From Bacteroidales bacterium (GTDB lineage: Bacteria > Bacteroidota > Bacteroidia > Bacteroidales > UBA932): a stretch of DNA of 51,254 nucleotides. The DNA is taken from assembly GCA_017452265.1 (NCBI GenBank), contig JAFTMS010000029.1, forward strand, positions 1-51,254. Reading direction: 5' to 3'. The notes below the pieces were generated by a model. It worked only from the letters and a program-made list of their open reading frames with translations, searched no databases and had not been told where the DNA came from. Positions 10,759-39,616 of this stretch are shown here, piece after piece (positions within the stretch are counted from its first letter, which is position 1; each line of letters begins with the position of its first letter). The position numbers were made by a program, and so were the translations under genes.

Positions 10759-10772
10759 AAGCCGGAAAGACC

Positions 10773-13464: not shown

Positions 13465-13466
13465 TT

Positions 13467-14657: not shown

Positions 14658-14660
14658 CCG

Positions 14661-16553: not shown

Positions 16554-16555
16554 AA

Positions 16556-18430: not shown

Positions 18431-18434
18431 CTCC

Positions 18435-21629: not shown

Positions 21630-21660
21630 AATAACTTTTCCATTAACAGATTACCATTTC

Positions 21661-23946
21661 TCAGAATGTCACGGAAAGACCTGCGACAATACTGCGGGAC
21701 ATGGGGTATGAGCCATAATCAAGGCCGTTCGACATTGCGCTCATGCCGAAGCTGTTCACATCGGGATTCCATCCGCTGTAGCCTGTGAACGTACACAGGT
21801 TGCGGGTGCTCAGCTGAACCGAAAGACTCTGCATCCATTTCACCTTTACCGGCACACTGTAGCGAAGTCCCAGTTCGTTCACCCTCAGGAAGTCTCCCTT
21901 CTCCACATAGTCCGGACTCAGTACCGGTGCACAGCCAGAAGGCATGCCCTGCTCGAGGATGAGACGGTTGAGATTTGCGATATGGTGGCCGGCGGCTCCG
22001 TCAAGCCCGAGGGAGACGGTGAAGCCTCCGATACGGACTGAAGTCGAGAACCCTCCATATATTACAGGCACCGTGTTCGCCAGAAGCATCCTGTCCGCTT
22101 CCGTCACGAGTCCTTCACCGGTCTGGTCCATATAGCTGCCGTCGCTGTCTGTGAGATAGCCGACAAGCATGCTGACAGGATAGCCCGGAAGGTTGCATGT
22201 CGCGCACATGCCGCCGCCGATCTCATTGCCCATGAAGTCAGCCGCTCCAAGGGAGACCAGACGGTTCGTATTCCATGCGAGAACGGCATTCATGTTCCAT
22301 TCCACCTTCCCTGTCGCCACCGGACGTGCATCAAGCTCGAATTCAAGGCCGCGGTTGGCCACAGAGCTTGATGCGCCATATGTGATGCGGTCGTACCATT
22401 TTCCTCCGAAGACGAGCCTGTCGGAAAGGAATCCGAACTTCGCTCCGGCATGCCACTCCTTGGTCAGAAGCTTCATCATGTCTTCCTCAAAAGGCATGTA
22501 TTTCTCGTAGCCGCTCCATCCGTATCCGCCGGCAAGCCTGATCGCCGACACCTTTTCATTGTCCGGCAGCAAGAGTTCGGCGAGATTCATCCATGCGGAC
22601 GCTGCCGGAAACAGATCCTTCACATCCCAGCCGTATTCCGGAGTGACGTCCGCACGCATGACGAGATCTGCACCGATGGCAGACTTCCATTCATAGGTTA
22701 TGTCCGCATAGGCTCCGAGATGGAAATATTCATTGCTGAAGACATGGTTGTATCTTTCCGTATTTCCGAGGGCGACGCCTTTGCCCCTGAGTTCGTCGGT
22801 CACGAAGTTGCGTGCGTTTATCGTATTGAGCTTGTCGCCGTTGCCCGTCAGAGAAGCGCCGACGACAGCCGTCAGATTATGTTCAAGATTGAAATAGCGG
22901 TGATATGTGAGCCTGGCGTCGGCATTGTAGCCGAAAAGCATCGAAGACATCACTGATGCGGCACCGCCGTTTGGATTCTCATCTGAAATCATTCCGAGCC
23001 CCACATGCCTTCCATACCAGATGACCCGCTTGTTTTCCTGAAGATCGAGGCCGGCGCTGAACTTCAGGGCAAGATGGCGTGTGAAGTTGAGCTGCAGCCA
23101 TGCGGACATCACGCCGCGATAATCTTCAGTATCGTCATCATATTCGCTGAGCCATGTCTCCTGCGTGACATTCTCTGAAAGCGAAGGATCGCGCAGGGCA
23201 AGCGTATAGGAAGGACAGCCGACCCATGCCGTTCCTGCCGGAGACGACGATTTTCCGACACTCAGGAGCGCATTCAGCCCGAACCACACGAGCCTGTCGC
23301 TTCCCGACGTCTCGTAATTTCCCCTGACCGTTCCGTAGCTGCTTCCGTTGCGTTTGAGCACGCCGTCGATGGAGCGGAACGAGCCGGACACATTGTAGCT
23401 GTTTCCGCCGGCGCTTCCGCTTACACCGACCGTATGGCTGTGGGATATGCCGTATCCCTGCACTCCTGAAGCAGCCATGTTCAGGGAGACATCAGAGTTC
23501 CAGCGTATGTCAAGTTCACGGCCGGTGCTGCGCTTCGTCCTGATGATCACGACACCGTTCGCGCCTCTTGCGCCATATATGGCTGTCGCAGAAGCATCCT
23601 TCAGGACCTCGATGCTTTCTATTTCGGACGGAATGAGGAAGGACAGCGGATTCAGCGCTGAAGAACAGCTCTTCCCGTCATACTGCCAGAACGCATCACG
23701 GTTGTCGTTGAGATTCTGCGAAATCATCACTCCGTCCACGATGTAGAGGGGCTGATTGTCCGAACGCAGCGAGTTGATGCCCCTTATGTTCACATTCACG
23801 TTTCCGACCGGATTGCCGTCAAAGGAACCCACGTATACGCCGGCGACTTCTCCACGAAGCATGTCTGCGACCGTTTCCTGAGCCTTGGCGGACATCGCGG
23901 AAAGGCCGAGCACAAGGCAGAATATTGTCTTTAAAGTATTTTTCAT
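21661..23946 (-). CDS. Short TonB-dependent receptor (SusC-like, no N-terminal regulatory domain)
   Basis: This 761-residue outer-membrane protein has a signal peptide ending 'AMSAKAQ'. It passes straight into a plug domain ('DMLRGEVAGVYVGSFDG', 'RGINSL', 'YIVDGVMISQ', 'EVLKDASATAIYGARGANGVV') and a beta-barrel ending in 'SIVAGLSVTF'. It lacks the carboxypeptidase-like domain found in most SusC proteins and is about 300 residues shorter. No SusD gene stands directly beside it; the next gene upstream is a lipoprotein (6 bp gap) that could be its surface partner. It lies 31 bp before the interrupted SusC gene. Confidence 0.92.
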   Translation of the reverse strand: MKNTLKTIFCLVLGLSAMSAKAQETVADMLRGEVAGVYVGSFDGNPVGNVNVNIRGINSLRSDNQPLYIVDGVMISQNLNDNRDAFWQYDGKSCSSALNPLSFLIPSEIESIEVLKDASATAIYGARGANGVVIIRTKRSTGRELDIRWNSDVSLNMAASGVQGYGISHSHTVGVSGSAGGNSYNVSGSFRSIDGVLKRNGSSYGTVRGNYETSGSDRLVWFGLNALLSVGKSSSPAGTAWVGCPSYTLALRDPSLSENVTQETWLSEYDDDTEDYRGVMSAWLQLNFTRHLALKFSAGLDLQENKRVIWYGRHVGLGMISDENPNGGAASVMSSMLFGYNADARLTYHRYFNLEHNLTAVVGASLTGNGDKLNTINARNFVTDELRGKGVALGNTERYNHVFSNEYFHLGAYADITYEWKSAIGADLVMRADVTPEYGWDVKDLFPAASAWMNLAELLLPDNEKVSAIRLAGGYGWSGYEKYMPFEEDMMKLLTKEWHAGAKFGFLSDRLVFGGKWYDRITYGASSSVANRGLEFELDARPVATGKVEWNMNAVLAWNTNRLVSLGAADFMGNEIGGGMCATCNLPGYPVSMLVGYLTDSDGSYMDQTGEGLVTEADRMLLANTVPVIYGGFSTSVRIGGFTVSLGLDGAAGHHIANLNRLILEQGMPSGCAPVLSPDYVEKGDFLRVNELGLRYSVPVKVKWMQSLSVQLSTRNLCTFTGYSGWNPDVNSFGMSAMSNGLDYGSYPMSRSIVAGLSVTF

Positions 23947-23952
23947 AGGCTG

Positions 23953-25134
23953 TTACTCGTAATGCAGGATGAACTTGGAAAGATGGCAGACCCTGTTGCC
24001 CAGACCGATGAACCTGTAGACTTCCCCAGGCTGAGGCTGGCCGTTCACATCCTTGCCGCCCTCACCGAGGTTCAGGACGAAATGGTCATCCACTCCCTGC
24101 TCCGTGAAATCATACGAATCGCTGAGGACGATACGGTTGTCGTCGTCCATGTTCTCCATCCTTGCCTTTATCTTATATTCCTTGTCATCTCCCTTAAGGA
24201 AGATCTCTACAGTCTTCAGGGTGCATCCTTCGATACCCGGGAAAGCGACAAATCCCCTGTTGCTGCCCACCTTTGTCTTGTAGACGATGTATGAATCCTT
24301 GAAATTAATCAGACGTACAGATATTTCATACTCGTTTTCACCGCACATGAACCTGTGGGATGTCACCTCTGCAGAGGTCTTCGCAGGAAGGGACGGAGTG
24401 TAGATGTCGGACGAGAAGTCTATGGTCATGAACGGCCTCTGGGTATATGTGACTTCAAGAGGTTCAAGACCTTCCACCTGAGGAACGATACGTATCAGGC
24501 CTTCGGAAAGGACAGCCGGATCACAGCCGCTGTTCGTATACGTGAATGTGATTTCCTGTCCTTCACCAGCCTCACCGGATGTTCTGGACAGTTCGATTCC
24601 CGTCAGACCGTCCTCAACCGCCTCAGCAGTCCACGCACAGTTGGTCGTGAATACGAGCCTTCCCTCCTCATCCGGCGAGAGCTGCGTATCCGCCGGCTCT
24701 TCAAGCCTCAGATACGGATCGGCCCCCGCCTGGATGACGGGAATGCTCTTGAAAAGCTGACCCTCAGAATACAGATTCAGGACTCCCTTGACAGGGGTTG
24801 TGGAGAAGTTGGTTTCAAATGTCACGGTAATGTCAGTCTCGTGTGCCGTGCCTGTGAGGTTGAAATGTTCACACACATCGATGGTGCCCCATTCGACCTG
24901 TCCTGAAAGGCCTACGGGATTGACGGCATTGTCCAGATGGGCATACCAGCTTCTGTTGGACCGGATGCGGATGACCTGCCGGTTCAGGGTCGTTTCGTCT
25001 GCAGATTCTGCAGGGGCGTACACGGAAGCCTTGTCGGTTTCCAGGATCATCGCCTCGCCTGCGGAACTGCCGTCAAGGCAGGCTGCGAGCATGAAGCCCG
25101 CAGCTGCCATGCAGCATATGTTTCTGAGAGTCAT
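23953..25134 (-). CDS. Surface lipoprotein with BACON/Ig-like repeats
   Basis: The 393-residue protein has a lipobox signal ('AAAGFMLAAC'). Two segments look like BACON-type beta-sandwich repeats: 'IRSNRSWYAHLD' (about residues 52-63) and 'FTTNCAWTAEAVEDG' (about 158-172). A further beta-rich C-terminal domain ends in 'CHLSKFILHYE'. Such proteins in PULs are usually surface glycan-binding proteins or spacers. It lies 6 bp before the short TonB-dependent receptor, so it may serve as that receptor's binding partner. Specific ligand unknown. Confidence 0.7.
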   Translation of the reverse strand: MTLRNICCMAAAGFMLAACLDGSSAGEAMILETDKASVYAPAESADETTLNRQVIRIRSNRSWYAHLDNAVNPVGLSGQVEWGTIDVCEHFNLTGTAHETDITVTFETNFSTTPVKGVLNLYSEGQLFKSIPVIQAGADPYLRLEEPADTQLSPDEEGRLVFTTNCAWTAEAVEDGLTGIELSRTSGEAGEGQEITFTYTNSGCDPAVLSEGLIRIVPQVEGLEPLEVTYTQRPFMTIDFSSDIYTPSLPAKTSAEVTSHRFMCGENEYEISVRLINFKDSYIVYKTKVGSNRGFVAFPGIEGCTLKTVEIFLKGDDKEYKIKARMENMDDDNRIVLSDSYDFTEQGVDDHFVLNLGEGGKDVNGQPQPGEVYRFIGLGNRVCHLSKFILHYE

Positions 25135-25176
25135 TGTATAAAGTGTCAGTTTATGTTGCTTATATTGCTGATTATA

Positions 25177-26604
25177 TTACTTGTAAATCAGTTCGATGTA
25201 TTCGACACATGATGTGCCCATTGTCGTTATTAATTTATACGAAGTATTTGCCTGTGCGGTTTCAGTGAAAATCACAGGTGATTCACCATCATTCTTTACA
25301 TAAGGAGAGAATATGTGCGAGGCACGTAGCACGACATTGTTCATCATAGGGAATGCATATGTCAGCTTGTCGTTCACTTCGCTTTTATCAGCTTTGTACA
25401 CTCCGGTCACATTCTTTGCATCTGCATCAGCCGTCTTGATGACCATGTTGGCAATGCCGTTCTGGGTATGGCTACGCCACGAAACCACGACATCCTTCAA
25501 GGTCTTGCCCTCAATCGCAGGAGTAATGACATATGCATTTTTTGCAAACTGTGCATAGCCATATGTTTTGTAAGTCATGGAAGAATAATCCATGGCATAT
25601 GACTTACCATTGAATGTCACGACAATGGATGATTCCGGAGACTCTGCAAGATTCGTATTATGAGCATTCTTTGTAAAATTTACAAGTATGCTCGTATAAT
25701 CCGTAAGATAATCCGCAGTCATGACGTTAGTAACGATGTCACCGAGATCAAGATACTCGTTGCGTACGATCGTTGCATTTTCCGAAGTGCGCTCGTACAC
25801 CTTTCCGTCGGTCGTCGTGACGGTCACTGTCAGCGTGGCAGTTCCCGACGTAGGGAATGCAGTCACCACATACGTTCCGGCAGCCATAGCTCCTCCACCG
25901 TTTGTTCCGCAATAGACGAACTTGTTCTCCTGTCCGCTTATCGAAGGATTGCCTTCAGCATCAAATTCCACCGTACATTTCCCGGAAAGCTTCTTGTTGG
26001 AAGAGAACCTGATTCTGGAGATGTCGCTGCCCTCGCTGACCGTGAACTTGATGTAGCCGCAGAGATTCATCATTGTGCCTGAAAGCATGTTGGTCGCCTC
26101 ATCCAGAACAGGTGAGCAGGCGGAGATGTTGGCTCCTTGAGTGAACGAATCCTTTTCAGCAAGCTGGAAGCTCGGAAGGAAGGTGGTCACGGCAACGGTG
26201 CCGGCATCTGCATCAGCAGCAAAATACGTTGCATCTATATTCTCGGATTTCAGATTCGGATATACGGCATAGAAAGGGCCTGAAGCATCAGCGAGAGTTC
26301 CTGTGAAGACATCCTCGGAATCGAAGATGAAGCCGTTGTTGTTTCCCGATGCATCGTAGATGGAGAGGTAGTCCTTTTCCTGCCATACCACAGCCTTGCC
26401 GTCAAGCGAAGATCTGGTCTGGGTTGAAGCAGTGAATGTATAGATGTCCGATGCATTTTCTTCCGATTCTTCATTTTCTTCAGGAGTTTCCTCCGGCACT
26501 GCCGGTGTTTCGGGATCGGAAGAAGCGGCTGGAGTCTCCTTTGTGCAGCCGGCCACGGCTATCACCGCAGCAAGCAGATAGATAAGTGTCTGTTTCATAT
26601 TCAT
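25177..26604 (-). CDS. Surface lipoprotein, fimbrillin-like N-terminal domain
   Basis: The 475-residue protein has a lipobox signal ('IAVAGC') and an acidic, proline- and glutamate-rich linker (about residues 25-52). Next comes a domain with 'TRSSLDGKAVVWQEKDYLSIYD', a pattern seen in Bacteroidota fimbrillin-like lipoproteins. The C-terminal part (about 300-475) is a separate beta-rich domain ending 'CVEYIELIYK', resembling the end of the next lipoprotein. In a PUL this suggests a surface glycan-binding protein, but no catalytic motif is seen. Start may be Met1 or Met3. Confidence 0.65.
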   Translation of the reverse strand: MNMKQTLIYLLAAVIAVAGCTKETPAASSDPETPAVPEETPEENEESEENASDIYTFTASTQTRSSLDGKAVVWQEKDYLSIYDASGNNNGFIFDSEDVFTGTLADASGPFYAVYPNLKSENIDATYFAADADAGTVAVTTFLPSFQLAEKDSFTQGANISACSPVLDEATNMLSGTMMNLCGYIKFTVSEGSDISRIRFSSNKKLSGKCTVEFDAEGNPSISGQENKFVYCGTNGGGAMAAGTYVVTAFPTSGTATLTVTVTTTDGKVYERTSENATIVRNEYLDLGDIVTNVMTADYLTDYTSILVNFTKNAHNTNLAESPESSIVVTFNGKSYAMDYSSMTYKTYGYAQFAKNAYVITPAIEGKTLKDVVVSWRSHTQNGIANMVIKTADADAKNVTGVYKADKSEVNDKLTYAFPMMNNVVLRASHIFSPYVKNDGESPVIFTETAQANTSYKLITTMGTSCVEYIELIYK

Positions 26605-27233: not shown

Positions 27234-29333
27234 TCAGAGGGTTACAAGGGTTTCAAGCAGTATATGCTGCTCGTTGTCACCGACCTGGATCATATAGTCA
27301 CCCTTGTCGACGACCCATGAATGAGACGGCACGTCGAAGTGCTCGAAGGCATGCCTCGGAAGATGTACGGTCACAGTCCTTGCCTCACCCTTGCCGAGCT
27401 TCACCTTCGTGAATTCCTTGAGTTCGCGCACAGGACGCGGAAGCGAAGGTTCGACAGGGGCCACATATATCTGGGCGGCTTCCGCAGCCTCGACCTTGCC
27501 GGTGTTCCTTATGGTGAATGTCACGTCGAAGCCGTCACCCGCTGGCTTTGCCGAAATGTCCGAATACTCGAAGGTCGAATATGTGAGTCCGTAGCCGAAA
27601 GGATATGTCGGAGTGCGGTCGAACTTCTCGATGCCACGATAGCCCATGAACACACCTTCCTTGAAGTCAATGTGAGGGCAGAGGTCGAAGCGGTCGTTGT
27701 TCATGTACTTTATGAACTTGTCGGCATAGTAGCTGTCCGAAGCCGGATTGTTCTCGAACGTGCCCCACATCGTGAAAGGAAGCCTTCCTGAGAACGAGAC
27801 CTTGCCGGAAAGAAGCTGTGCAAGCACAATTCCCGTATTCTCACCGCCGTACCATGCATACACGATGCCTGCGGCCTTGTCCTTCCATGCGTTCATGTCC
27901 ACCTCGCAGCCGGCATGCACTATCACGATCACCCTTTCGGAAAGACCGGTGAGCCTGCGGATAAGTTCTTCCTGTTCCTCCGGAAGACCGAATTCATGGT
28001 CGCGGTTCTCGCCCTCGATACGCTTTCCGAGGCCGACCTCCACGATGACGGTCTTTGCAGACTTTATCTGCTCGTCCGTCGGTTCTTCAGCCAATACGAC
28101 ATCATAATCCTTTCCGAGGGCCTTCATGCCCTGGTATGTGGTGACATATCTGCCTTCGAACGGTGTGCACCAGCTTGACCCGCCGCCGGCAATCTGCCTG
28201 TCGGCATATGGACCTGTCAGCAGTATCGTGTTCTTACGTCCCTTTGCAAGAGGAAGCACACCCTCATTCTTGAGAAGCACAGGGCCTCCCAAAGCCGCCT
28301 CATAGGCATTTGCAGTACAGTACGGGTTGTCGAATTCGTCCGGTTTCCTTACAAGAGGACGGTCGAGCAGGCCGAAAGCGATGGCAGTCTGGAGGACATG
28401 CTGGCATTTCTCGTCTATCTCTTCCTCGCGTACGACTCCGTTTTCCACAAGGCGCTTCACCCTTTCATAGTCGTGGGTGAAAGGATTCGGCATCTCAATG
28501 TCGAGTCCGCCTCGGATACCGTTCAGAGTACTGTAGATTGTCTGCCAGTCGCACATGGTCGTTCCCTCGAAGCCCCAGTCCTCACGGAGAGTCTGACGGA
28601 GCAGATACGGGCTTTCGGCGCAGTGCACCGCATTGAGCCTGCCGCACGACGTCATCACGGCACCGACCTTAGCCTCCTGAACCGCCTTGCGGAACGCCTC
28701 GAAATAGATTTCATGGAGGGTGCGCTCATCCACATTGTGAGTCACGACGAAACGGTCCCACTCCTGGTTGTTCACGGCGAAATGCTTTGCAGTGGCGATG
28801 ACATCATGGGACTGTACGGCCTTGATGAAGGAAACGGCCATTTCTCCCGACAGATACGGGTCTTCACCATAATAGTCGAAATTGCGTCCGGCAAAAGGAG
28901 CACGGTACAGATTGATGCCGGGACCGAGAAAGAATCCGACTCCGCGCGCACGGGCATCAAGTCCCAATGCATCACCTACAAGTGAAGCGGAGCGTCTGTC
29001 GAAACTTGCAGCCAGCGAGATGCCGCAAGGATAAAAGGTACATGGCTCGGTACGACGCACCTTGTTGTTGATGCCGCAGGGGCCGTCCGCCATGGGAATA
29101 GGCTGGACACCAAGTTCCGGCACGCATGCCAGCACGTTGATGTTCAGGTCGATTGAATCCGGATGATACTTTCCGCTGATCACGCGCAGCTTCTGCTCCA
29201 GATTCATCTTTCCGATCAGCTCCGCAGCCCTTGCCTTGTGTGCCTCAGTGATTTCAACGGTCTTGAAATCCTGTGCAGACAGGGAGAGTATGCCCGCCAA
29301 CGGAATAATCAGGATTGATAATGCCTTCTTCAT
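27234..29333 (-). CDS. GH3 family glycoside hydrolase (exported)
   Basis: The 699-residue enzyme has a signal peptide ('IPLAGILSLSAQ'), the GH3 TIM-barrel domain ('PIPMADGPCGI', 'GPGINLYRAPFAGRNFDYYGEDP', 'ATAKHFAVNNQE'), the alpha/beta sandwich, and a C-terminal fibronectin III-like domain ('PRPVRELKEFTKVKLGKGE'). The catalytic nucleophile is Asp262 in 'GTTMCDWQ', where the usual Ser before Asp-Trp is Cys. GH3 enzymes release terminal beta-glucose, xylose or similar sugars from oligosaccharides. It is the first gene of the eleven-gene PUL operon and carries the promoter with the T-tract repeats. Confidence 0.95.
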   Translation of the reverse strand: MKKALSILIIPLAGILSLSAQDFKTVEITEAHKARAAELIGKMNLEQKLRVISGKYHPDSIDLNINVLACVPELGVQPIPMADGPCGINNKVRRTEPCTFYPCGISLAASFDRRSASLVGDALGLDARARGVGFFLGPGINLYRAPFAGRNFDYYGEDPYLSGEMAVSFIKAVQSHDVIATAKHFAVNNQEWDRFVVTHNVDERTLHEIYFEAFRKAVQEAKVGAVMTSCGRLNAVHCAESPYLLRQTLREDWGFEGTTMCDWQTIYSTLNGIRGGLDIEMPNPFTHDYERVKRLVENGVVREEEIDEKCQHVLQTAIAFGLLDRPLVRKPDEFDNPYCTANAYEAALGGPVLLKNEGVLPLAKGRKNTILLTGPYADRQIAGGGSSWCTPFEGRYVTTYQGMKALGKDYDVVLAEEPTDEQIKSAKTVIVEVGLGKRIEGENRDHEFGLPEEQEELIRRLTGLSERVIVIVHAGCEVDMNAWKDKAAGIVYAWYGGENTGIVLAQLLSGKVSFSGRLPFTMWGTFENNPASDSYYADKFIKYMNNDRFDLCPHIDFKEGVFMGYRGIEKFDRTPTYPFGYGLTYSTFEYSDISAKPAGDGFDVTFTIRNTGKVEAAEAAQIYVAPVEPSLPRPVRELKEFTKVKLGKGEARTVTVHLPRHAFEHFDVPSHSWVVDKGDYMIQVGDNEQHILLETLVTL

Positions 29334-29367: not shown

Positions 29368-29375
29368 CAAAATTA
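29368..29375 (-). promoter_or_regulatory. -7 box of the PUL operon promoter
   Basis: TAATTTTG on the minus strand, 34 bp before the GH3 ATG. The same octamer stands before the symporter gene (33501-33508) at the same distance from an equivalent T-tract pair. No TTTG is present at the -33 position, as expected for an activator-dependent promoter. Confidence 0.65.
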
Positions 29376-29399
29376 GGAAGAGGTCCTCTGACGGGGCCG

Positions 29400-29432
29400 A
29401 AAAAAAATACCATATTGTTTCAAAAAAATACC
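29400..29432 (-). promoter_or_regulatory. Candidate regulator operator: two T-tract direct repeats
   Basis: On the minus strand GGTATTTTTTT appears at 29432-29422 and again from 29411. The T runs end 22 bp apart, about two helical turns. The second run ends exactly 24 bp before the TAATTTTG box. The same arrangement stands at 33444-33476. Binding by the AraC-type domain of the adjacent hybrid regulator is inference. Confidence 0.6.
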
Positions 29433-29455
29433 ACCGGAAAAATACGGCCTGCAGG

Positions 29456-32400
29456 CTATTCCTCCGCATCTTTTGCATACTCGGCCGGGGTCTTTCCGAA
29501 GAAGTCACGGAAGCATTTCGAGAAATATGAAGGCGTGCTGAAACCGACCATATAGCAGACTTCGGAAGGTATGACACCCTTCCTTCGGAGAATCTTGGCC
29601 GCCACATTCAGACGCTTCGCCCTGATGTATTCGACAGAGGTCATGTTGAGCAGTCCGTTCATCTTGCGGTTCAGTGAAGAATGGCTCATGTGCAGTTCGT
29701 TTTCGAGCTGCCGCACGTTGAAGTCCTCGTCGCTGATGTGGGCCTCGACTATGGCATCCAGATTCCTCAGGAACTCGACATCTCTGTCCTCTATGTCGAA
29801 TCCGGCAAGATTGTCCTGTTCGTCGGACTCCTTCTGTATGCTCGCACGCAGCGACATGCGCTTGCGCAGGATGCCGTTTATGCATGAGACAAGATATTCG
29901 ACCGTGAAAGGCTTGACGAGATAGAGGCTTGCGCCATTCTCCATGCACTTTATCTTGGTGCTTTCATTGGATATTGCGGAAATCACCACAACCGGAATAT
30001 GCGAATTCTCGAAGTCGCTGCTGAGACGTCTGCAGAACTCGACTCCGCCCATTCCCGGCATACTGACATCCGTGAGAATCACATCGACCCTGCATTTCGC
30101 TATGATCTTCAGGGCCGCCTCGGCAGATTCCGCCGATATGACATTGAACATCTGCTTCATCCTGTCCTGAAGGAAGCTTGAAAGCTCGTGATTGTCTTCG
30201 ACCAGAAGCACGACAGGCTGCTTCGTGCCCATATCCATGTCCGGTTCATCCTCCTCCGCCTCGACAGGATCCGGAGCTAAAGCGAGCGTAAGTTGGAATT
30301 CGGTCTTCTGCGAAGGCGAGAGGGCCAGAGAACCGCCCTGAAGTTCAGCATAACGTCTCGCCACCGAAAGGCCGATTCCGAATCCCTGAGAGTAGCGCGT
30401 CTTGTCGTCCGTAAGCCGGACGAAAGGCTTGAATATCTCGATACGTTTGTCTGTCGGTATCTCCGCTCCGTCGTTTCTTACACATATGACCACAGTGCCG
30501 TCCTTCACCGCAGCCTCAACCTCAATATAAGAATCAGAATACTTCAGAGCATTGTGTATCAGATTGTTGAGTATCTTGTTTATGGCCTTCTCATCCACTA
30601 TGGCCATAATCTGTTCTTCGGAATGTATGAAATCCAGCTTCAGGTTCCTGTTTCTGGCCGTCTCCGAAAAATTGAAGCAGATGTAGCTGAGCTTCGCGAC
30701 AATATCCATAGGCTGAAGCTTCATCGTCTCGTGGTCGTATTCCTCTATCCTGATGAATTCGAGAAGTTCCTTCGACAGACGGTCCAGATAGTCCGTGCTG
30801 TTGTCTATTATCTGAAGTTCCTCGCGGGTATCCTCGGAAAGGCCATCAAGCGAATGCAGATACTTCAAAGGCGTCTTCATCAGCGTCAGCGGCGTCTTGA
30901 ACTCATGCACGACGGTCTGAAGGAGCTCCATCTTGTTCTGCACCATCTCCACTTCCTTTGCGCGCTTCACCTCCTCGATATCCTTCTGATGCTTCTTCTT
31001 CTCCACCCTGTCGAGAATCAGCACGACCGTGCCGACGATGAAGACTATGGCCAGGACTATCATGGCTATGCCGACCCCCGAAAGCAGGAACGGCGGTTCT
31101 ATCACGATCCGGACAGGCTTATGGCCAGTCACATTCAGAGTGTAGTTTCCGTACGGCACATTGAACCAGGACATCTCCATTGTAGAGGAAACATCCGCAG
31201 GCTCGCTGTCATACCCATCAAGCTGCGCATACACGGTACCGGGCCAGTCCTCCAAAGGTGTCGAGAACCTGAAGCGGAAAGAATTCTGACCGGCTGTCAG
31301 ACGTATCTCATCCACAAGGTTCACATTTTCTCCGGCAATCCTGTCCCTGTCCTTATGCGAGCTTACGGGCACTTCGCCGATATACATTTCCGAGAAATCA
31401 AGGCTGGCCAGAGGGGCGTCGTCGTCAAAATCCTCCGGATCGAACGAGATGAAACCATCGGCCGAGCCCATGAGGGAAACGCCCGAAGAAAGTTCCTTCA
31501 CCGACGTCAGGGAATTGTTCAGCAGACCGGAATTGACCGTATACATATTGAGCGACCCTCTTTCAGGATCGAAGTCGAAGAGTCCCACCGTGGAGGTTAT
31601 CCACATATGGCCTCTGTCGTCCTGAAGCGCATTAAGCAGCGAGCAGTTCGAAAGACCCGGGAGGTCGATGCTGTGGAAGACCCTGAACCTGTCCGCATCG
31701 GGATCGTACCTGTATATGTCGGCATTCCTGCCTATCATCCATATGCCTCCGTCATCGTCCACAAACGGCGACGACACCATCTCGCCGACATCCTCCCTGT
31801 CCTTGGAAGACACATATCCCTGCGCCGTGCCCTTTGCCCTGTCGTAGCGGAACACACCGTTTATATATGTACACGCCCATATCATACCGTCCCTGGTCTG
31901 GACGAAATCCACGACGTTACCATATTTGGAAGTTCCCAAGCACTCGAACGTATCATCCTCCTCCCTGTATTCGTACATGCCGCCCACAAGACTTACAAGC
32001 ACCTTTCCGCCCTTTCCCAGATGGATCGACATCACCCTGTTGTTCACGACCTCCCCTTCAAGCTCGAACCGGTCGTAGCAGCGCAGACTTCCGTCGGACA
32101 GGTCCAGACGGTACAGCCCCTCATACGAACCCAGCCACAGACGGTCACCCTCCGCACACACCCACGTCAGGAAGACCGGAAGCCGCCTGTTCTTCACGAC
32201 ATCGATGCGGCCGGTCGCAGGATCATACTTCAGCAGTCCGAGGCGTTCGGTCGTCATCCATACCGTCCCATCCTCACCCTCGTCTATGCACGTGACCACC
32301 TTGCCGGACATGGATACTCCCGAAGAAGTGACATAATGGCGTTCGAACTTGCTGCTTCCGCACGAAGAACGGTTCAGTCCCCTTGTGTTCAGTCCCACCC

Positions 32401-33349
32401 AGAGCCTGCCGTCCTTGTCCATCGCCGAACATGTGACAAAATTTTCTGCCAGCGAGAAACGGTCATCGGGATCATGTCCGAAATGGGAGACTTCGTCATT
32501 GAGCACATCAAAACGAAGAAGGCCGTATGTCGTGGAAATCATTATATATCTTTCCCCTACGAACTCGACATGGTTCGGTTTCTGCCCCTCCATCCACCTG
32601 TAGACGACCTCCACGCTCGCACGGCTGAGGTTGATGCGGCATAGACCATGTGTCTTCGAGGTGACATACACCACGTCATCGGATCCCGGACTCAGCACAG
32701 GGGCATGAAGTTCGTCATTGAGGAACATGTCCGTATCCTTCCCGAGATCCACGGGAAGCATCCTGTCCGTGCGCTTGTCGAATATGTACACATTGTCCGC
32801 GCTCCGGCATACGAAGAGTCTTTCATTGCTGAGCGTCGTCATCTTGGCATACATCCTCTTCCACTTGCTTCTGAACCTGAGGAAGCCTTCCTCGACATTG
32901 CAGGAGAAGATGCCCTCGCCTGTGATGTCCATCCACACGTTTCCGCTGCCGTCTGCATGGAGATGGTTCACGACCCCGTCCGGGATATGCCCGTCCGCGT
33001 CGCACGGCAGGCGGAAGCTGTCCGATGAATAGTCGTAGACGGCCACTCCCCGCGAGGTGCCGATCCATACCTGACCAGTGGAATCCTCGCACAAGGCACC
33101 GACATAGTTTGCGTCTATACCTATGTCACGACGAGTGTATGACTTCATCCTTGTGCCGTCATAACGGTTCAGGCCCATGTACGTGCCCACCCAGACATAT
33201 CCCCTGCTGTCCACAAGAATGCTGCGGACTCCGTCGTTGGAGAGTCCGTGGGACTGCATCGTCATGTTTATGAACGATGGAGACGCCGTCGCAGCAAAGC
33301 AGACGGCAAGACACAGGAGAAGACTGGTTATGAATTTACGCATCATCAT
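29456..33349 (-). CDS. Hybrid two-component system sensor/regulator (HTCS)
   Basis: One protein senses glycan fragments in the periplasm and activates the PUL. From the ATG at 33349 it is 1297 residues; a longer open frame reaching 33862 runs over the divergent symporter gene and is rejected. Order: signal peptide (about 1-24), beta-propeller repeats ('VDSRGYVWVGTYMGLNRYDG' and many alike, to about 650), Y_Y_Y domain (about 690-745), one membrane helix (about 757-778), HisKA with phospho-accepting His815 in 'VVHEFKTPLTLM', HATPase, receiver with Asp1094 in 'ILTDVSMPG', and an AraC-type helix-turn-helix (about 1196-1297, 'YMVGFSTPSYFSKCFRDFFG'). It lies between its two presumed target operons. 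Confidence 0.97.
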   Translation of the reverse strand: MMMRKFITSLLLCLAVCFAATASPSFINMTMQSHGLSNDGVRSILVDSRGYVWVGTYMGLNRYDGTRMKSYTRRDIGIDANYVGALCEDSTGQVWIGTSRGVAVYDYSSDSFRLPCDADGHIPDGVVNHLHADGSGNVWMDITGEGIFSCNVEEGFLRFRSKWKRMYAKMTTLSNERLFVCRSADNVYIFDKRTDRMLPVDLGKDTDMFLNDELHAPVLSPGSDDVVYVTSKTHGLCRINLSRASVEVVYRWMEGQKPNHVEFVGERYIMISTTYGLLRFDVLNDEVSHFGHDPDDRFSLAENFVTCSAMDKDGRLWVGLNTRGLNRSSCGSSKFERHYVTSSGVSMSGKVVTCIDEGEDGTVWMTTERLGLLKYDPATGRIDVVKNRRLPVFLTWVCAEGDRLWLGSYEGLYRLDLSDGSLRCYDRFELEGEVVNNRVMSIHLGKGGKVLVSLVGGMYEYREEDDTFECLGTSKYGNVVDFVQTRDGMIWACTYINGVFRYDRAKGTAQGYVSSKDREDVGEMVSSPFVDDDGGIWMIGRNADIYRYDPDADRFRVFHSIDLPGLSNCSLLNALQDDRGHMWITSTVGLFDFDPERGSLNMYTVNSGLLNNSLTSVKELSSGVSLMGSADGFISFDPEDFDDDAPLASLDFSEMYIGEVPVSSHKDRDRIAGENVNLVDEIRLTAGQNSFRFRFSTPLEDWPGTVYAQLDGYDSEPADVSSTMEMSWFNVPYGNYTLNVTGHKPVRIVIEPPFLLSGVGIAMIVLAIVFIVGTVVLILDRVEKKKHQKDIEEVKRAKEVEMVQNKMELLQTVVHEFKTPLTLMKTPLKYLHSLDGLSEDTREELQIIDNSTDYLDRLSKELLEFIRIEEYDHETMKLQPMDIVAKLSYICFNFSETARNRNLKLDFIHSEEQIMAIVDEKAINKILNNLIHNALKYSDSYIEVEAAVKDGTVVICVRNDGAEIPTDKRIEIFKPFVRLTDDKTRYSQGFGIGLSVARRYAELQGGSLALSPSQKTEFQLTLALAPDPVEAEEDEPDMDMGTKQPVVLLVEDNHELSSFLQDRMKQMFNVISAESAEAALKIIAKCRVDVILTDVSMPGMGGVEFCRRLSSDFENSHIPVVVISAISNESTKIKCMENGASLYLVKPFTVEYLVSCINGILRKRMSLRASIQKESDEQDNLAGFDIEDRDVEFLRNLDAIVEAHISDEDFNVRQLENELHMSHSSLNRKMNGLLNMTSVEYIRAKRLNVAAKILRRKGVIPSEVCYMVGFSTPSYFSKCFRDFFGKTPAEYAKDAEE

Positions 33350-33354
33350 GTGGT

Positions 33355-33367
33355 CCGGAAGTTCCGG
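33355..33367. promoter_or_regulatory. Palindrome in the HTCS gene leader
   Basis: CCGGAAGTTCCGG is a perfect inverted repeat of two 6-bp arms around one G. It lies between the predicted transcription start and the ATG of the HTCS gene. Its role is unknown. Confidence 0.35.
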
Positions 33368-33385
33368 TGCAAATCCGTTACGATG

Positions 33386-33393
33386 CAAAGTTA
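33386..33393 (-). promoter_or_regulatory. -7 box of the HTCS gene
   Basis: TAACTTTG on the minus strand, 36 bp before the ATG; no obvious -33 partner. Confidence 0.5.
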
Positions 33394-33443
33394 AACAAGA
33401 TTTCAATATTGTGTCACGGCTATGCCGCCGGCGTATCGCGATA

Positions 33444-33476
33444 GGTATTTTTTTGCAAGAATCGGGGATATTTTTT
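33444..33476 (+). promoter_or_regulatory. Candidate regulator operator: two T-tract direct repeats
   Basis: GGTATTTTTTT (33444-33454) and GGATATTTTTT (33466-33476) have T runs ending 22 bp apart. The second ends exactly 24 bp before TAATTTTG. This mirrors the GH3 promoter site at 29400-29432 on the other strand. Confidence 0.6.
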
Positions 33477-33500
33477 CCTATGTCCCTGCCCCGCAACCGG

Positions 33501-33508
33501 TAATTTTG
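33501..33508 (+). promoter_or_regulatory. -7 box of the symporter operon
   Basis: TAATTTTG lies 31 bp before the symporter ATG. It is identical to the box of the GH3 operon and has no TTTG at -33. Confidence 0.65.
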
Positions 33509-33539: not shown

Positions 33540-35201
33540 ATGGGAACACTTGATCTGATGACCGTAGCCATATTCTCGGTGGCGGTACTTGTGACAGGCA
33601 TTTCGCTCTCGCGCACAGGAAAGGACATGAAGGGATTTTTCGGCGGAGGAGGAAATGTGCCCTGGGGCATGAGCGGCCTTTCGCTCTTCATGGGATTCTT
33701 TTCGGCCGGCACCTTCGTAGTATGGGGTTCGCTTGCATATTCACACGGCCTCGTCGCCATAATCATACAGCTGACGATGTGTCTGGCGGGATTCGCCGTC
33801 GGCACCTTCGTGGCAGGTAAATGGCAGCAGACGGGCTGCCTGACAGCCGCGGAATACGCCACCGAAAGGCTCGGTGAAAAGACGCAGAAGGCCTACACAT
33901 ACATATTTCTTGCAGTATCGATATTCACGACAGGCTCGTTCCTGTACCCGGTGGCAAAGATAATAGAAGTGGCTGCCGGCGTACCGCTGACGACATCCAT
34001 ACTCGTTCTCGGAATCTTCTGCATCATCTACGTGTCATTGGGAGGCCTGCGCGGAGTCATGGTGACGGACGTGCTCCAGTTCGTGATACTGATGGCGGCC
34101 GTCGTCATCGCCATCCCGCTTTCATTCGGAAAGGTCGGCGGAGTCGGAGAATTTCTCGAAAAGGTGCCGGAAGGCTTCTTCAGATGCTTCAACGACGAGT
34201 ATTCACCTCTGTTCATCTTCGCATTCTGCATCTACAACGCAGTGTTCCTCGGCGGAAACTGGGCGTATGTGCAGAGATATACGGCAGTGAAGGGCACTTC
34301 GAGCGCCAGGAAGGTCGGCTGGCTGTTCGGTGCGCTGTACATTGTCAGCCCTGTGCTCTGGATGCTTCCTCCGATGATATACAGGATATACAATCCGGGG
34401 CTTGAAGGCCTTGAGAACGAGAACGCCTACCTGCTCATGTGCAAGGAGGCCCTCCCGTACGGATTCCTCGGGATGATGCTCGGCGGAATGATATTCGCCA
34501 CCGCAAGCTCGCTGAACTCCACCCTCAACATATCGGCAGGAGTGTTCACAAACGACATCTACAGAAAGCTGCGTCCGGAGTCTTCGCAGAAGCATCTGAT
34601 GAGGATGGCGCGCATGTCCACGATATTCTTCGGTCTTCTGGCCATCGTGGTGGCGCTTCTTGTCAAATCGATGGGAGGCATAGTGAACGTGGTGATAAGC
34701 GTTGCAGCACTCACGGGAGTGCCTCTGTATCTGCCGCTCATATGGTCGCTCTACTCAAGACGGCAGAACGGCAGGACGCTCATGGGCGTGACGCTTTCGT
34801 CCCTGACTGTCAATCTGCTGTTCAAGTTCGTCACCCCTCTCTTCGGTCTGAGCCTCGGCAGAGGGATGGAGATGCTTGTGGGTACGATGGTTCCGGTACT
34901 GATGCTTACGGTAATCGAGATCGTGCTTGCCAAAAGAGGATACGTAGATCCGATGGCTTCGGAATACGCCGGAAAGGCAGCGGAAGGCAGGACCGATGAC
35001 GTCGGAGACGGAGATGGCGGTGCCGCTGACGGCGAGGAGACCAACCGTTTCACATCGAAGGTGCTCGGCATAAGCATCACGGCGGCAGGTGCGGCAATCC
35101 TCGTGCTCGGACTCATAAGCCCGGCCAAGGCAGTCCCTGTCACAGTCGCTTCCGCTGTGCTTCTCTTAGGTCTCGTCATACTTATAAGGAACAGGAAATG
35201 A
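33540..35201 (+). CDS. Sodium:solute symporter (SSS) family protein
   Basis: The 553-residue inner-membrane protein has 13-14 hydrophobic segments and the SSS hallmarks 'GKDMKGFFGGGGNVPWGMSGLSLFMGFFSAGTF', split over the first two helices, and 'LGGLRGVMVTDVLQF'. A charged loop (about 475-505) precedes the last two helices. SSS transporters import sugars, sialic acid or other small molecules with sodium. Coupled to a PUL with lyase and GH88, it may take up the released monosaccharide or uronic-acid derivative into the cytoplasm; the substrate is inferred only. Its stop overlaps the next ATG by four bases (ATGA), indicating translational coupling. Confidence 0.93.
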   Translation: MGTLDLMTVAIFSVAVLVTGISLSRTGKDMKGFFGGGGNVPWGMSGLSLFMGFFSAGTFVVWGSLAYSHGLVAIIIQLTMCLAGFAVGTFVAGKWQQTGCLTAAEYATERLGEKTQKAYTYIFLAVSIFTTGSFLYPVAKIIEVAAGVPLTTSILVLGIFCIIYVSLGGLRGVMVTDVLQFVILMAAVVIAIPLSFGKVGGVGEFLEKVPEGFFRCFNDEYSPLFIFAFCIYNAVFLGGNWAYVQRYTAVKGTSSARKVGWLFGALYIVSPVLWMLPPMIYRIYNPGLEGLENENAYLLMCKEALPYGFLGMMLGGMIFATASSLNSTLNISAGVFTNDIYRKLRPESSQKHLMRMARMSTIFFGLLAIVVALLVKSMGGIVNVVISVAALTGVPLYLPLIWSLYSRRQNGRTLMGVTLSSLTVNLLFKFVTPLFGLSLGRGMEMLVGTMVPVLMLTVIEIVLAKRGYVDPMASEYAGKAAEGRTDDVGDGDGGAADGEETNRFTSKVLGISITAAGAAILVLGLISPAKAVPVTVASAVLLLGLVILIRNRK

Positions 35202-37480
35202 TATTTGAAAGCTTCAATCCGGAGCGTTCCCTCAAGAAGGAGGAACGTTCATATGATCTTGTCGTGATCGGAGGAGGTCTCACGGGAGTGTGCTGCGCCC
35301 TGACTGCCGCGCGCGAGGGTATCAAGGTATGTCTCGTGCAGGACAGGCCCGTGCTCGGAGGCAACTCTTCAAGCGAAGTGCGCGTCTGGGCCCTCGGAGC
35401 GACATCCCATCAGGGAAACAACAACAGGTGGTCACGCGAAGGCGGAGTGATAGACGAGATACTCACGGAAAATCTCTGGAGGAACAAGGAGGGAAATCCG
35501 CACCTCTTCGACATGCTGCTGATAGACAAGGTGCTGGCGGAAAAGAACATCACACTGATGCTGAACACCATCGTGTTCGACATACGCAAGTCCTCGGCAA
35601 GCCGCATCAGGAGCGTCCTTGCCCTCAACGCATCATCCGAGACCATGTACGAACTGTCTGCAGGACTTTTTGCCGACTGCTCGGGAGACGGCATCGTGTC
35701 CTATCTTGCCGGCGTTCCTTACCGTATGGGAGCGGAAGAAAAGGAGGTGTACGGAGAAGGATTCGCTCCCGACCCCGAAAAATACGGCGAACTCATGGGC
35801 GACACCATATTCTTCTACATGAAGGACACCGGCCGCAAGGTGGAATACAAGGCCCCGTCATTCGCATTGAAGGATGCCGGAAAATACATTTCAAAGATTC
35901 ACAATCCGGAATATTTCAACACAGGGCATCACGGATGCAAATACTGGTGGCTGGAATACGGAGGAAAATGCGACACGGTGCATGACACGGAAAAGATAAA
36001 GCTTGAACTATGGAAGGTGGTATACGGGATATGGGACCACATCAAGAACTCCGGCGCACATCCCGAGATGGACACGTGGACTCTGGAGTGGGTCGGAGTG
36101 ATTCCGGGCAAGCGCGAAAGCCGCAGATTCAAGGGAATGTACACGCTCACGCAGCAGGACATCGTGGAGCAGACGTCATTCCACGACACCGTCTCCTATG
36201 GCGGATGGGCCGTCGACCTGCATCCGGCCGAAGGTGTGTACGCACCGGGGCGTGCCTGCAACCAGTGGCATTCTAAAGGCATATACGGAATTCCGTTCAG
36301 ATGCTTTGTCAGCAAGGATGTAGAGAATCTGATGTTCGGCGGACGCATCGCAAGTTCGTCACACGTGGCGAACGGCTCGATGAGGGTGATGTGCACATGT
36401 GCCCATGGAGGACAGGCCATTGGCATGGCGGCGGCACTCTGTACTGTCTACGGCCATGTCCCGGCATATTATACGGAAGCCGGCAATGTGAAGGAGCTTC
36501 AGCACGCTCTGGAAGCACGCGGGCAGTTCATACCGGGATTCGAGGAGGCCGACAAGAACAATCTCCTCAATTCGGCTTCCCTCACCTCAAGCCGTCCGTT
36601 CCTGTTCAGAGGATTCCGTCACGACGCAGGATTCATGCCGCTGGAGTTCTCCACAGCCCTGCTGCTGCCCGTCCGGAAAGGCAATGTGCCCGGCATCAGC
36701 ATACCGGTCGAAGCCACGGAGGCAACGGAACTGACGGTAGAGCTCAGGACGAGTTCTAAAGTCCGCAACTTCACTCCCGATGTGACCTTGGAGACTGTGA
36801 GGATTCCTCTCGAAGCGGGCGCAAGCACTGTTTCATGGTCGTTCAGGCACGTGATTGACTGTGACAGATACGTATTTGTCTGCCTCATGCGCAATCCCCA
36901 TGTAAAGGCAGGATGCAGCTGTGAGCTTGCACCGGGAATCATGACAGTATACAATCATATCAATCCGGCAGTTTCGAATTACGGCCGTCAGGATGCTCCG
37001 GAAGGCACAGGCTTCGAATCGTTCGAATTCTGGTGTCCGAAAAGAAGGCCGGCGGCAAGGAACCTTGCGGTGACGCTGAAACAGACGCTTGACATATACG
37101 GGACAGACAATCTGAGAAACATTCTGAAAAGGCCGCTCAGGCAGCCTGACTGCTGGGCGTGTGACGATGCGGAAGCGGCAGTGGAGCTGACATGGAAGCA
37201 TGAGGTGGAGATAAAGGAGATCACACTTTTCTTCGACACGGACACCGACCATGCCATGGAGACCGTACAGATGGGCCATACCGAAAATGTCATGCCTCAG
37301 TGCGTCCGCTCGTACAGGATATATGAGGGTTCAGGAAGGCCCGTATATGTAAAGACGGAGAACCATCAGGCAGTCAACCATATGATTTTGGACAGGCCTG
37401 TACGCACCTCGCGGCTGCGCATCGAAATGGACAGACCGGAATCCTGCCCCGCATCCCTGTACCATATGATCATAAAATGA
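35198..37480 (+). CDS. FAD-dependent oxidoreductase (FAD_oxidored family)
   Basis: The 760-residue protein begins with an FAD-binding dinucleotide fold 'DLVVIGGGLTGVCCALTAAREG' (about residues 14-35) and continues 'VLGGNSSSEVRVW', typical of the PF12831-type oxidoreductases. A conserved 'FADCSGDG' and 'NLMFGGRIASSSHVANGSMRVM' complete the flavin domain (to about 440). The C-terminal 300 residues are beta-rich and look like a carbohydrate-binding or discoidin-like extension. No signal peptide is seen, so it probably acts in the cytoplasm on the compound imported by the symporter with which it overlaps (ATGA). The sugar oxidised is unknown. Confidence 0.85.
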   Translation: MIFESFNPERSLKKEERSYDLVVIGGGLTGVCCALTAAREGIKVCLVQDRPVLGGNSSSEVRVWALGATSHQGNNNRWSREGGVIDEILTENLWRNKEGNPHLFDMLLIDKVLAEKNITLMLNTIVFDIRKSSASRIRSVLALNASSETMYELSAGLFADCSGDGIVSYLAGVPYRMGAEEKEVYGEGFAPDPEKYGELMGDTIFFYMKDTGRKVEYKAPSFALKDAGKYISKIHNPEYFNTGHHGCKYWWLEYGGKCDTVHDTEKIKLELWKVVYGIWDHIKNSGAHPEMDTWTLEWVGVIPGKRESRRFKGMYTLTQQDIVEQTSFHDTVSYGGWAVDLHPAEGVYAPGRACNQWHSKGIYGIPFRCFVSKDVENLMFGGRIASSSHVANGSMRVMCTCAHGGQAIGMAAALCTVYGHVPAYYTEAGNVKELQHALEARGQFIPGFEEADKNNLLNSASLTSSRPFLFRGFRHDAGFMPLEFSTALLLPVRKGNVPGISIPVEATEATELTVELRTSSKVRNFTPDVTLETVRIPLEAGASTVSWSFRHVIDCDRYVFVCLMRNPHVKAGCSCELAPGIMTVYNHINPAVSNYGRQDAPEGTGFESFEFWCPKRRPAARNLAVTLKQTLDIYGTDNLRNILKRPLRQPDCWACDDAEAAVELTWKHEVEIKEITLFFDTDTDHAMETVQMGHTENVMPQCVRSYRIYEGSGRPVYVKTENHQAVNHMILDRPVRTSRLRIEMDRPESCPASLYHMIIK

Positions 37481-37516: not shown

Positions 37517-39616
37517 ATGACCAGAATCTTCATCACACTGCTTCTTTCCATACTGACCTGCTGCACATCGGAACTGAACGCAGAAATCACCGACATAAAT
37601 GCGCAAAGTGCAGTCAACGGCAAGAAGGAAGCCGTCATACAGGACATCGAAGGCAACATATTCGAAGGCATCACACGAATCACAGAAGCCGGCAATGCCG
37701 GACACGCCCTGTATCTGCGCGGCAATACTCTTTACTGCGGTTCGGGTACTGAAGTCCTCGTCTTCGACGTCTCGGATCCGCTGGCACCGAAGCTCCGCTC
37801 AAGATGCAGCATCTACGGCTGGGTACGTCAGCTTGTGGCAGATGACAAGGCCATTTACGTCACGGCACGCGGCCAGGGACTGAGCATCATCGACGCTTCC
37901 GACCTGGACAACCTGAAATTCGCCAAGAGATACGACACCATCGAGCTTGCGACCGGCGTCGATGTGGCAGGCGACGTTCTCTTCGTGACGCTTCGAGGCT
38001 ACGGAGTGGAATTCGTGGACATATCGGACATCTACAATCCCCAGCACATATATTGCCAGAAGACCCCGGAAAGCCAGAGCTGCTGGTACCAGAACGGGTA
38101 TCTGTATTCAGGAGAATGGGCCAAGGGACTAGTGACCACGATAAAGGCATCGGACATGTCGGACATCAGGATCCTGTCCTCCGACAACCTTTACGGCTGC
38201 GGCGACGGCCTCTCCACATTGGGTGACAGGCTTTATGTCGCCACAGGCCACCATGCAAGGCACACGGACATGTCTTCGGAAGAAGCTCAGGGCATGGGAC
38301 ACGGACTCGACATTTTCGACATATCCGATCCTGCAAAGCCTTCATTCATCTCGCGCGTACAGTTCGACAAACTCTACAAGCGCGGCTCCGGCGACTGGTG
38401 GACAGTGCGTCCGAGCGCAGACGGCAAGACGCTCTTCGTTGCAGACACATTCAACGGGCTGTATGCAGTGGATGCCTCAGACGAGAAGAATCCCAAGATT
38501 GCAGGACGGGTGTTCATAGGGCAGACAGGCAAGCCGGCAGAACCGGCGACCTACGTATCTTCAGTCGCCGTCGGTGACGGTGTGGTATATGCCACAGGAC
38601 AGACCTTCGGCCTTGTCGCGATAAAGTGCAGCAAGGCGAAGAAGGTGGAAAGGGATCAGGGGACGCTTCCTTCGAATCCGGGTGCAAGATATGCCTACGA
38701 CACGCCGGCAGGAAGCCATTTCAAGGCATGGAAACCGGACGAGCGGGCACAGGTCAGAGCTCTTGCCCTCGCCGGAGACGACCTGCTGCTGGCCGCCTGC
38801 TCGGATGCCGGACTTATCGTGCTCAGGAATGACAGAAAGGCCGGTCTTCAGCAGATCGGCAAGGGTGATATGGATTTTGCCGGAGACGTATCCTTCAGAG
38901 ACGGCAGGGTGTATGTTGCTGAAGGTGTCGACGGTCTCGGTGTCTATGAAATAAGCCGGGACGGCAGGCTCACGGAGATTGCAAGGCTGAAGGACATGCC
39001 GGAATATCCCGAATTCAAGGTCACGCTCTGGGTCAACGCCGTAAGCGACAGATATGTGATAATCAACGACAGACGCTATGGCAACACCGTTCTGGACATC
39101 TCAGGCTTCCCGGCCATGAAGCCTGTGCACCAGCATCACATGGGCACTACATGGTGGGACAAATACATTGCGGACAAAGTCTCTCCGAACGGTTACATAG
39201 CAGCCCCGATAGTGGGCAAGGGCATGTCATGGATAGATCTCAACGGCACTCCAAAAGACAGCGTGCACGACAGGTCAGTCCAGACGACGACGGCAGCATG
39301 TCCGTTCCGCGACGGCACCGTCCTCGTGAACCTGAAAGGCAACAGGCTGTGCCAGCTGAAGCCGGGAGTCGTGCCCGCTGAAATCATCGCCGAAGCTAAA
39401 GGCAATTTCAATGGTTCGCCTGTCTGGGACGGAGAAAGCACACTCGCAGTGAACTTCCGCCATGGCAAGGAATTCAAGAAGGTCAGCATCCCGACCGTGG
39501 AAAGCGCCACGATACTCTGGAAGGAGACTCTCGAAGGCAATCCGGACAGAGCCATATTCTGGAACGGCAAGATTCTCGTTCCGGCCGGCTATCAAGGCAT
39601 CCTGATCGAGAAATAG
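37517..39616 (+). CDS. Exported LVIVD-repeat beta-propeller protein
   Basis: The 699-residue protein has a signal peptide ('MTRIFITLLLSILTCCTSE'); the Cys pair could be a lipobox. It then has repeated blades of the type 'GTEVLVFDVSDPLAPKL', 'GQGLSIIDASDLDNL', 'GYGVEFVDISDIYNP' and 'GHGLDIFDISDPAKP', the LVIVD pattern of bacterial beta-propellers. No catalytic motif is recognised. It is the third gene of the symporter operon, 36 bp after the oxidoreductase gene. A binding or scaffold role outside the inner membrane is plausible. Confidence 0.8.
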   Translation: MTRIFITLLLSILTCCTSELNAEITDINAQSAVNGKKEAVIQDIEGNIFEGITRITEAGNAGHALYLRGNTLYCGSGTEVLVFDVSDPLAPKLRSRCSIYGWVRQLVADDKAIYVTARGQGLSIIDASDLDNLKFAKRYDTIELATGVDVAGDVLFVTLRGYGVEFVDISDIYNPQHIYCQKTPESQSCWYQNGYLYSGEWAKGLVTTIKASDMSDIRILSSDNLYGCGDGLSTLGDRLYVATGHHARHTDMSSEEAQGMGHGLDIFDISDPAKPSFISRVQFDKLYKRGSGDWWTVRPSADGKTLFVADTFNGLYAVDASDEKNPKIAGRVFIGQTGKPAEPATYVSSVAVGDGVVYATGQTFGLVAIKCSKAKKVERDQGTLPSNPGARYAYDTPAGSHFKAWKPDERAQVRALALAGDDLLLAACSDAGLIVLRNDRKAGLQQIGKGDMDFAGDVSFRDGRVYVAEGVDGLGVYEISRDGRLTEIARLKDMPEYPEFKVTLWVNAVSDRYVIINDRRYGNTVLDISGFPAMKPVHQHHMGTTWWDKYIADKVSPNGYIAAPIVGKGMSWIDLNGTPKDSVHDRSVQTTTAACPFRDGTVLVNLKGNRLCQLKPGVVPAEIIAEAKGNFNGSPVWDGESTLAVNFRHGKEFKKVSIPTVESATILWKETLEGNPDRAIFWNGKILVPAGYQGILIEK

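Follow-up and report, generated by a model that had tools for sequence, protein, structure and literature searches.

The window, by which we mean the whole 51,254-nucleotide stretch of DNA analyzed, contains a PUL in which an HTCS gene sits between two opposite-facing promoters, that of a GH3 glycosidase gene on the minus strand and that of a symporter gene on the plus strand. All five HTCS domains (Reg_prop, HisKA, HATPase_c, Response_reg, and HTH_18) were detected in one chain, each above cut-off. The propeller sensor of this protein is probably periplasmic, and SHIP is present in the sequence of its Response_reg domain. The genes and promoter features, the latter including two candidate operators, are as follows.

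12301..26604, minus strand: remaining PUL downstream of the GH3 gene (TonB-plug protein, SusC-like barrel, SusD, heparinase II/III-like protein, GH26, GH88)
27234..29333, minus strand: GH3 glycosidase, first gene behind the minus-strand candidate operator
29368..29375, minus strand: -7 box TAATTTTG of the GH3 operon; no -33 TTTG; GH3 ATG 42 nt from the start of the box
29401..29411, minus strand: proximal half-site of the GH3-side candidate operator, 21 bp on from the distal one and starting 36 bp before the -7 box
29422..29432, minus strand: distal half-site GGTATTTTTTT of the GH3-side candidate operator (sequence pattern)
29456..33346, minus strand: HTCS, 1296 aa; profile domains Reg_prop propeller sensor, HisKA, HATPase_c, Response_reg, and C-terminal HTH_18/AraC
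33444..33454, plus strand: distal half-site GGTATTTTTTT of the symporter-side candidate operator (sequence pattern)
33465..33475, plus strand: proximal half-site GGGATATTTTT of the symporter-side candidate operator, 21 bp on and starting 36 bp before the -7 box
33501..33508, plus strand: -7 box TAATTTTG of the symporter operon; no -33 TTTG; symporter ATG 39 nt from the start of the box
33540..35201, plus strand: sodium:solute symporter (SSF), first gene behind the plus-strand candidate operator
35198..37480, plus strand: FAD-dependent oxidoreductase, overlapping the end of the symporter gene
37517..39616, plus strand: LVIVD beta-propeller protein, perhaps cotranscribed in the symporter operon as its third gene

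Two other features of the window deserve mention. A single in-frame TAG at 21384-21386 (minus strand) appears to separate the SusC-like gene (ORF 18435-21374) from the sequence for its signal peptide and N-terminal domain, and this TAG may be a genuine interruption or result from an error in the assembly. Two neighboring PmbA/TldD metallopeptidase genes have overlapping longest ORFs (9340-10758 and 10668-12158, plus strand).

Layout and Specificity of the Two Window Promoters

Both promoters match GGNATNTTTTT-N10-GGNATNTTTTT-N25-TAATTTTG with no mismatch. At each promoter of the HTCS-adjacent PUL, two half-sites form a direct repeat with a step of about 21 bp, and TAATTTTG has one copy per strand in the window, exactly at these promoters. 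According to an earlier, sequence-only reading of this DNA, the T runs end 22 bp apart at both promoters, the second run ends 24 bp before TAATTTTG, and -33 TTTG is absent from both. We confirmed these observations, and neither TTTG nor TTG occurs within the 24 bases preceding either box. The 22-bp step holds for the ends of the T runs, but the better repeat length is 21 bp at both promoters, the discrepancy arising because the T runs differ in length. In the 21-bp register, all four units fit GG[TG]AT[TA]TTTTT, and the second unit starts 36 bp before the box in both cases. At the minus promoter, the GGTA starts are 21 bp apart, and at the plus promoter the nearest look-alike starts (GGTA and GATA) are 23 bp apart. 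A symmetric 22-bp pattern, TATTTTTT-N14-TATTTTTT with at most one mismatch, matched one other place and missed both window sites; as the window units sit outside the 22-bp register, it was dropped for the 21-bp register.

Allowing up to three mismatches, the composite pattern has two matches in the window, both with 0 mismatches, and none in 100 shuffles, in line with the earlier argument that spacing shared to the base is unlikely to be due to chance. In the draft genome to which the window belongs (2,564,470 bases, 84% complete), the repeat pair with up to three mismatches was found at the two window sites only, and a reversed-pattern control gave no match. We extended the search to 400 genus genomes, an even sample of a larger group in which nearer species may exist. 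With at most one mismatch, the operator pattern was found at 14 places in 12 genomes and the reversed control at 8 places in 8 genomes; the exact matches were the two window sites only, so that the operator letters appear to be private to the window locus among the sampled genomes. The motif search near HTCS genes proposed in the sequence-only reading thus did not place the motif at random sites, either in its own genome or in the 400 genus genomes.

Alternatively, these sites could belong to another regulator (some other HTCS or a stand-alone AraC-type protein) and be next to the window HTCS by coincidence. The incompleteness of the draft genome and the occurrence of other Reg_prop proteins on five other contigs leave room for such a regulator elsewhere. 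However, in this draft genome the sites are confined to the two promoters flanking the window HTCS, and no other transcription regulator family was found among the window proteins scanned, which makes this explanation unlikely.

Repeat Geometry at Other HTCS Promoters

We analyzed 88 HTCS loci including the window, mostly of the genus; 17 stretches taken arbitrarily from the same genus served as controls. Locus L036 (24% identity, Proteobacteria), which came from a contig scan yielding five loci, was removed before all counts; three of the 17 control stretches have weak kinase-like matches to the HTCS and were kept. For TAnnTTTG boxes upstream of an ORF, listed by means of a simple ORF caller, we measured the self-identity of the sequence preceding the box at a range of lags. 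For the 137 promoter boxes of the 88 loci, self-identity at lag 21 averages 6.04/18 versus 4.42-5.32 at 18 other lags, with a single positional peak upstream of the box. An identity of at least 9 at lag 21 was reached by 29 of these 137 boxes versus 1 of 40 control promoter boxes. None of 1000 shuffles reached the observed lag-21 mean for the 132 genus boxes that are left once the window is removed. For the 40 control promoters, the lag-21 mean (5.00) is not above their other lags and was reached in 590 of 1000 shuffles. Boxes in coding sequences show a smaller lag-21 excess (4.94 vs 4.58, 0/1000 shuffles), and in the control stretches the mean for the 89 coding boxes peaks at lag 21 (5.36), 6 of these boxes reaching 9. 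We put this coding excess down to codon periodicity.

The T-tracts might be regarded as bent or UP-like DNA that boosts promoter strength without any specific protein, all the more as the control promoters are also A/T-rich upstream. Nevertheless, these controls are devoid of the 21-bp repeat (5.00 observed vs 5.04 shuffled), and at the window promoters the GG before each T-tract is kept and the spacing is base-exact. We consider an effect of this kind very improbable.

When the 58 promoters richest in self-identity, three of them from the window, are combined in a logo, TG appears at -58/-57 and -37/-36 relative to the box, with a T-rich tract after each TG. The G that all four window units have in common coincides with positions -57 and -36. 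A half-site model was trained on one half of the loci and applied to the other; several loci are mutual orthologs that may fall in both halves of the split. This half-split training gave 349 lag-21 hits in HTCS loci, 88 of which are then followed by a TAnnTTTG box. Exactly 38 bp separate hit and box in 24 of these 88 cases, and the second commonest offset, 59 (38 plus one repeat), accounts for 7; in the control stretches, 2 of 14 box-followed lag-21 hits are at 38 bp. We listed 25 operator-promoters, which correspond to 24 distinct ones because L035 and L054 are one record seen twice (counted once in the 137-box set and twice among the 25). Nine of those listed precede ORFs of 1027-1082 aa, SusC-like by size only. 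L171, another HTCS locus of the window's own genome, has the same kind of operator with different letters.

A model-free check, requiring at least 11/14 identical positions, was carried out on 87 genus and 40 other-family loci. It gave 18 lag-21 pairs with a box within 90 bp, and 57 of 75 lag-21 pairs had none at this distance. The second copy starts 36-47 bp before the box in 13 of the 18 pairs, one of which is the window minus site, versus 3 of 19 for nine other lags; control stretches gave 0/6 for lag-21 pairs with a box. These small numbers agree with the main count. Both window sites flank the same gene and their 10-base half-site spacers are 6/10 identical, but recent copying between the two promoter regions, in place of selection for spacing, is extremely unlikely: identity is near chance both in the 25 bases from operator to box (5/25) and in the 40 bases preceding the operators (12/40), and the same geometry is found elsewhere with different letters.

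The -33 element was also counted. TTTG is present at this position in 1 of the 25 operator-bearing promoters, 9 of 40 control promoters, and 8 of 220 coding boxes; the corresponding figures for TTG are 2/25, 16/40, and 30/220. These counts are supportive of operator-bearing promoters being without a -33 element, but the 25 promoters were picked by a model reaching close to the -33 place.

A distinct layout was observed directly before HTCS-sized ORFs (1304-1319 aa). In ten such promoters, the 21-bp repeat is accompanied by a box TAnnTTG[CT] that follows the proximal half-site start by only 28 bp; compared with the 38 bp seen at the other promoters, the box is nearer by roughly one helical turn (0-based positions with strand: L090 +5895, L097 +5907, L101 -5924, L102 -5886, L111 -5247, L112 -5860, L113 +719, L114 -2126, L124 +5103, and L126 -5126). 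This layout may mark self-regulation, possibly of opposite sign.

Outside the genus, we chose by hand 40 HTCS loci of other families within the order from 69 listed matches outside the window's genome. Their 101 promoter boxes show a maximum at lag 21, with a start 23 bp before the box (lags 12-33 and offsets scanned), and the observed lag-21 mean was reached in 0 of 1000 shuffles. Applied to these families at lag 21, the genus model again gave 38 as the commonest offset, with 9 of 213 hits at the lowest threshold and at most 2 for any other; the signal is weaker than in the genus because the letters differ. We consider it reasonably probable that HTCS promoters across Bacteroidales have one rigid layout, in which two half-sites (TG-N4-[A/T]TTTT-like) are separated by a 21-bp step, the second keeps a fixed distance to TAnnTTTG, and the -33 element has been given up. 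As the letters between TG and the T-tract vary by regulator and the geometry is kept, a new HTCS operator might be read from its geometry alone.

Window Promoters under the Half-Site Model and Relatives of the HTCS

The two window promoters rank first (minus, 18.5) and second (plus, 9.8) among the 19 TAnnTTTG boxes of the window scored with a half-site model trained on half of the loci and without the window, the next boxes scoring 8.2 and 7.2. From the model start of the proximal half-site, the distance to TAnnTTTG is exactly 38 bp at the minus promoter and 38 or 39 bp at the plus promoter, where the model prefers 39. The register of this T-rich plus site is uncertain by one base (score 9.8 for the expected offset, 12.6 when shifted by one), and its units carry AG and GG where the model has TG. 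This promoter is absent from the training and logo lists because a longer reading frame covers it in the ORF caller. The likely own box of the HTCS gene (33393, minus strand) scores -6.4, so that self-activation through such an operator is not seen.

A search of 151 and then 400 genus genomes gave full-length HTCS matches of at most 41% identity; a partial match, G009, is 46% identical over residues 756-1292. The layout is present, with other letters, at promoters of the nearest relatives L003, L004, L230, and L233 (all 41% identity), L003 and L230 having the same operator. The offset is as expected in L004 and one base off in L003, L230, and L233. At the first two loci (L037 and L038), the DNA-binding domains are 54% and 57% identical to that of the window HTCS. 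The layout was not found at relatives L005, L231, and L232, and of five short stretches around further relatives four gave no hit and one, L249, a weak hit (8.6) shifted by two. Since the half-sites of the nearest relatives have other letters (e.g., TGAACAGTTTG), the T-tract form appears specific to the window locus. No GH3 or symporter match was found in 20 HTCS neighborhoods, the five contig-scan loci, or seven relative loci of 6.4-6.9 kb.

The 475-aa gene at 25177-26604 in the window has no Pfam match above cut-off. A relative of this gene with 30% identity lies at 56-1195 of L232, beside an HTCS 39% identical to the window's, a hint that the gene travels with this HTCS group.

Proposed Regulon and Mechanism

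We propose with good confidence that the adjacent HTCS has its operators at the two window sites, through which it would activate the GH3-led cluster and the symporter-oxidoreductase(-propeller) genes. The sequence-only reading had already taken the sites for binding sites of this HTCS, and the occurrence of a 21-bp repeat at a fixed distance from the -7 box beside many HTCS genes and not at controls argues for this assignment. The same reading placed the symporter, oxidoreductase, and propeller genes in the regulon. The first two are retained as predicted members; the propeller gene is a weaker candidate than first stated, since its membership is deduced solely from the 36-bp gap that follows the oxidoreductase gene. 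From their strand and order, the genes at 12301..26604 downstream of the GH3 gene probably belong to the regulon as well.

By this mechanism, the periplasmic propeller would sense a glycan breakdown product, so that the GH3-led cluster and the symporter-oxidoreductase(-propeller) genes would be induced together. Once phosphorylated, the AraC-type domains of the HTCS would form a head-to-tail dimer along a single DNA face, occupying two half-sites one 21-bp step, or two helical turns, apart. The bound HTCS would then replace the missing -33 contact and recruit RNA polymerase to the -7 box TAATTTTG. As the proximal half-site ends just upstream of the place of the -33 TTTG, the bound regulator could stand in for this contact.

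Several elements of this model have counterparts in known systems. The HTCS operators predicted in Bacteroides thetaiotaomicron are direct repeats of 21 bp on average, read as reflecting an HTCS dimer on one side of the DNA, and operator motifs were reported for 16 of the 36 HTCS of one species (Ravcheev et al. 2013; PMC3878776). The window register is likewise 21 bp, and the window letters consist of GG and a T-tract; this comparison with the B. thetaiotaomicron operators is by description only, and no distance to the -7 box was found in the parts covered of that article (PMC3878776). HTCS fragments bind PUL promoters in a phosphorylation-dependent manner, and an S/CHIP-DK motif has been linked to inhibited DNA binding until phosphorylation (PMC11253607). 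The response-regulator fragments of BT4124 and BT4663 have the HTH_18 domain and the receiver SHIP in common with the window HTCS, a comparison that covered the SHIP part of the S/CHIP-DK motif (PMC11253607). The consensus for the Bacteroides primary sigma factor comprises TAnnTTTG at -7 and TTTG around -33 (PMC7366714). The window promoters share a perfect -7 box with it, but they are without the -33 element, whose place lies just downstream of where the proximal half-site ends.

That HTCS operators are 21-bp direct repeats is therefore already known, and the order-wide geometry is the part worth following. In the portions of the open-licence literature covered, including PMC3878776, PMC11253607, PMC11501099, and PMC12596196, we found no mention of HTCS operators lying at a fixed distance from the -7 box; nor was such a distance rule found in the parts covered of PMC10994844, PMC12125979, PMC6874557, and PMC7366714. 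Many HTCS genes are without a known operator. If the geometry holds, the fixed operator to -7 distance would provide a simple rule to find HTCS operators in uncultured Bacteroidales, and the same rule would serve the design of glycan-inducible promoters. The window locus would tie a symporter and an oxidoreductase gene to glycan sensing.

Relatives of the symporter were found in 15 of the 400 genomes, including the window's own. We examined 12 symporter neighborhoods (54-70% identity), several of which end at contig ends. The window HTCS is not in any of the 12 stretches fetched, and none has an operator-like pair directly before the symporter gene. Among the 67 TAnnTTTG boxes scored in these neighborhoods, five have an operator-like pair above 7, the best (11.5, L080) being located between the oxidoreductase gene and a TonB-type gene. 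As the symporter-oxidoreductase pair occurs elsewhere without the window HTCS or its site, the regulation of the pair probably differs between species.

The symporter and FAD oxidoreductase genes are found together in 11 of the 12 neighborhoods (L072-L083), L083 showing the symporter alone. Their order is reversed in the seven closest neighborhoods, and in six of these seven a match to a TonB receptor lies nearby. L081 and L082 have in common a palindrome, AACGTTCCCGGGAACGTT, upstream of the symporter gene, which we presume to resemble LacI-family operators.
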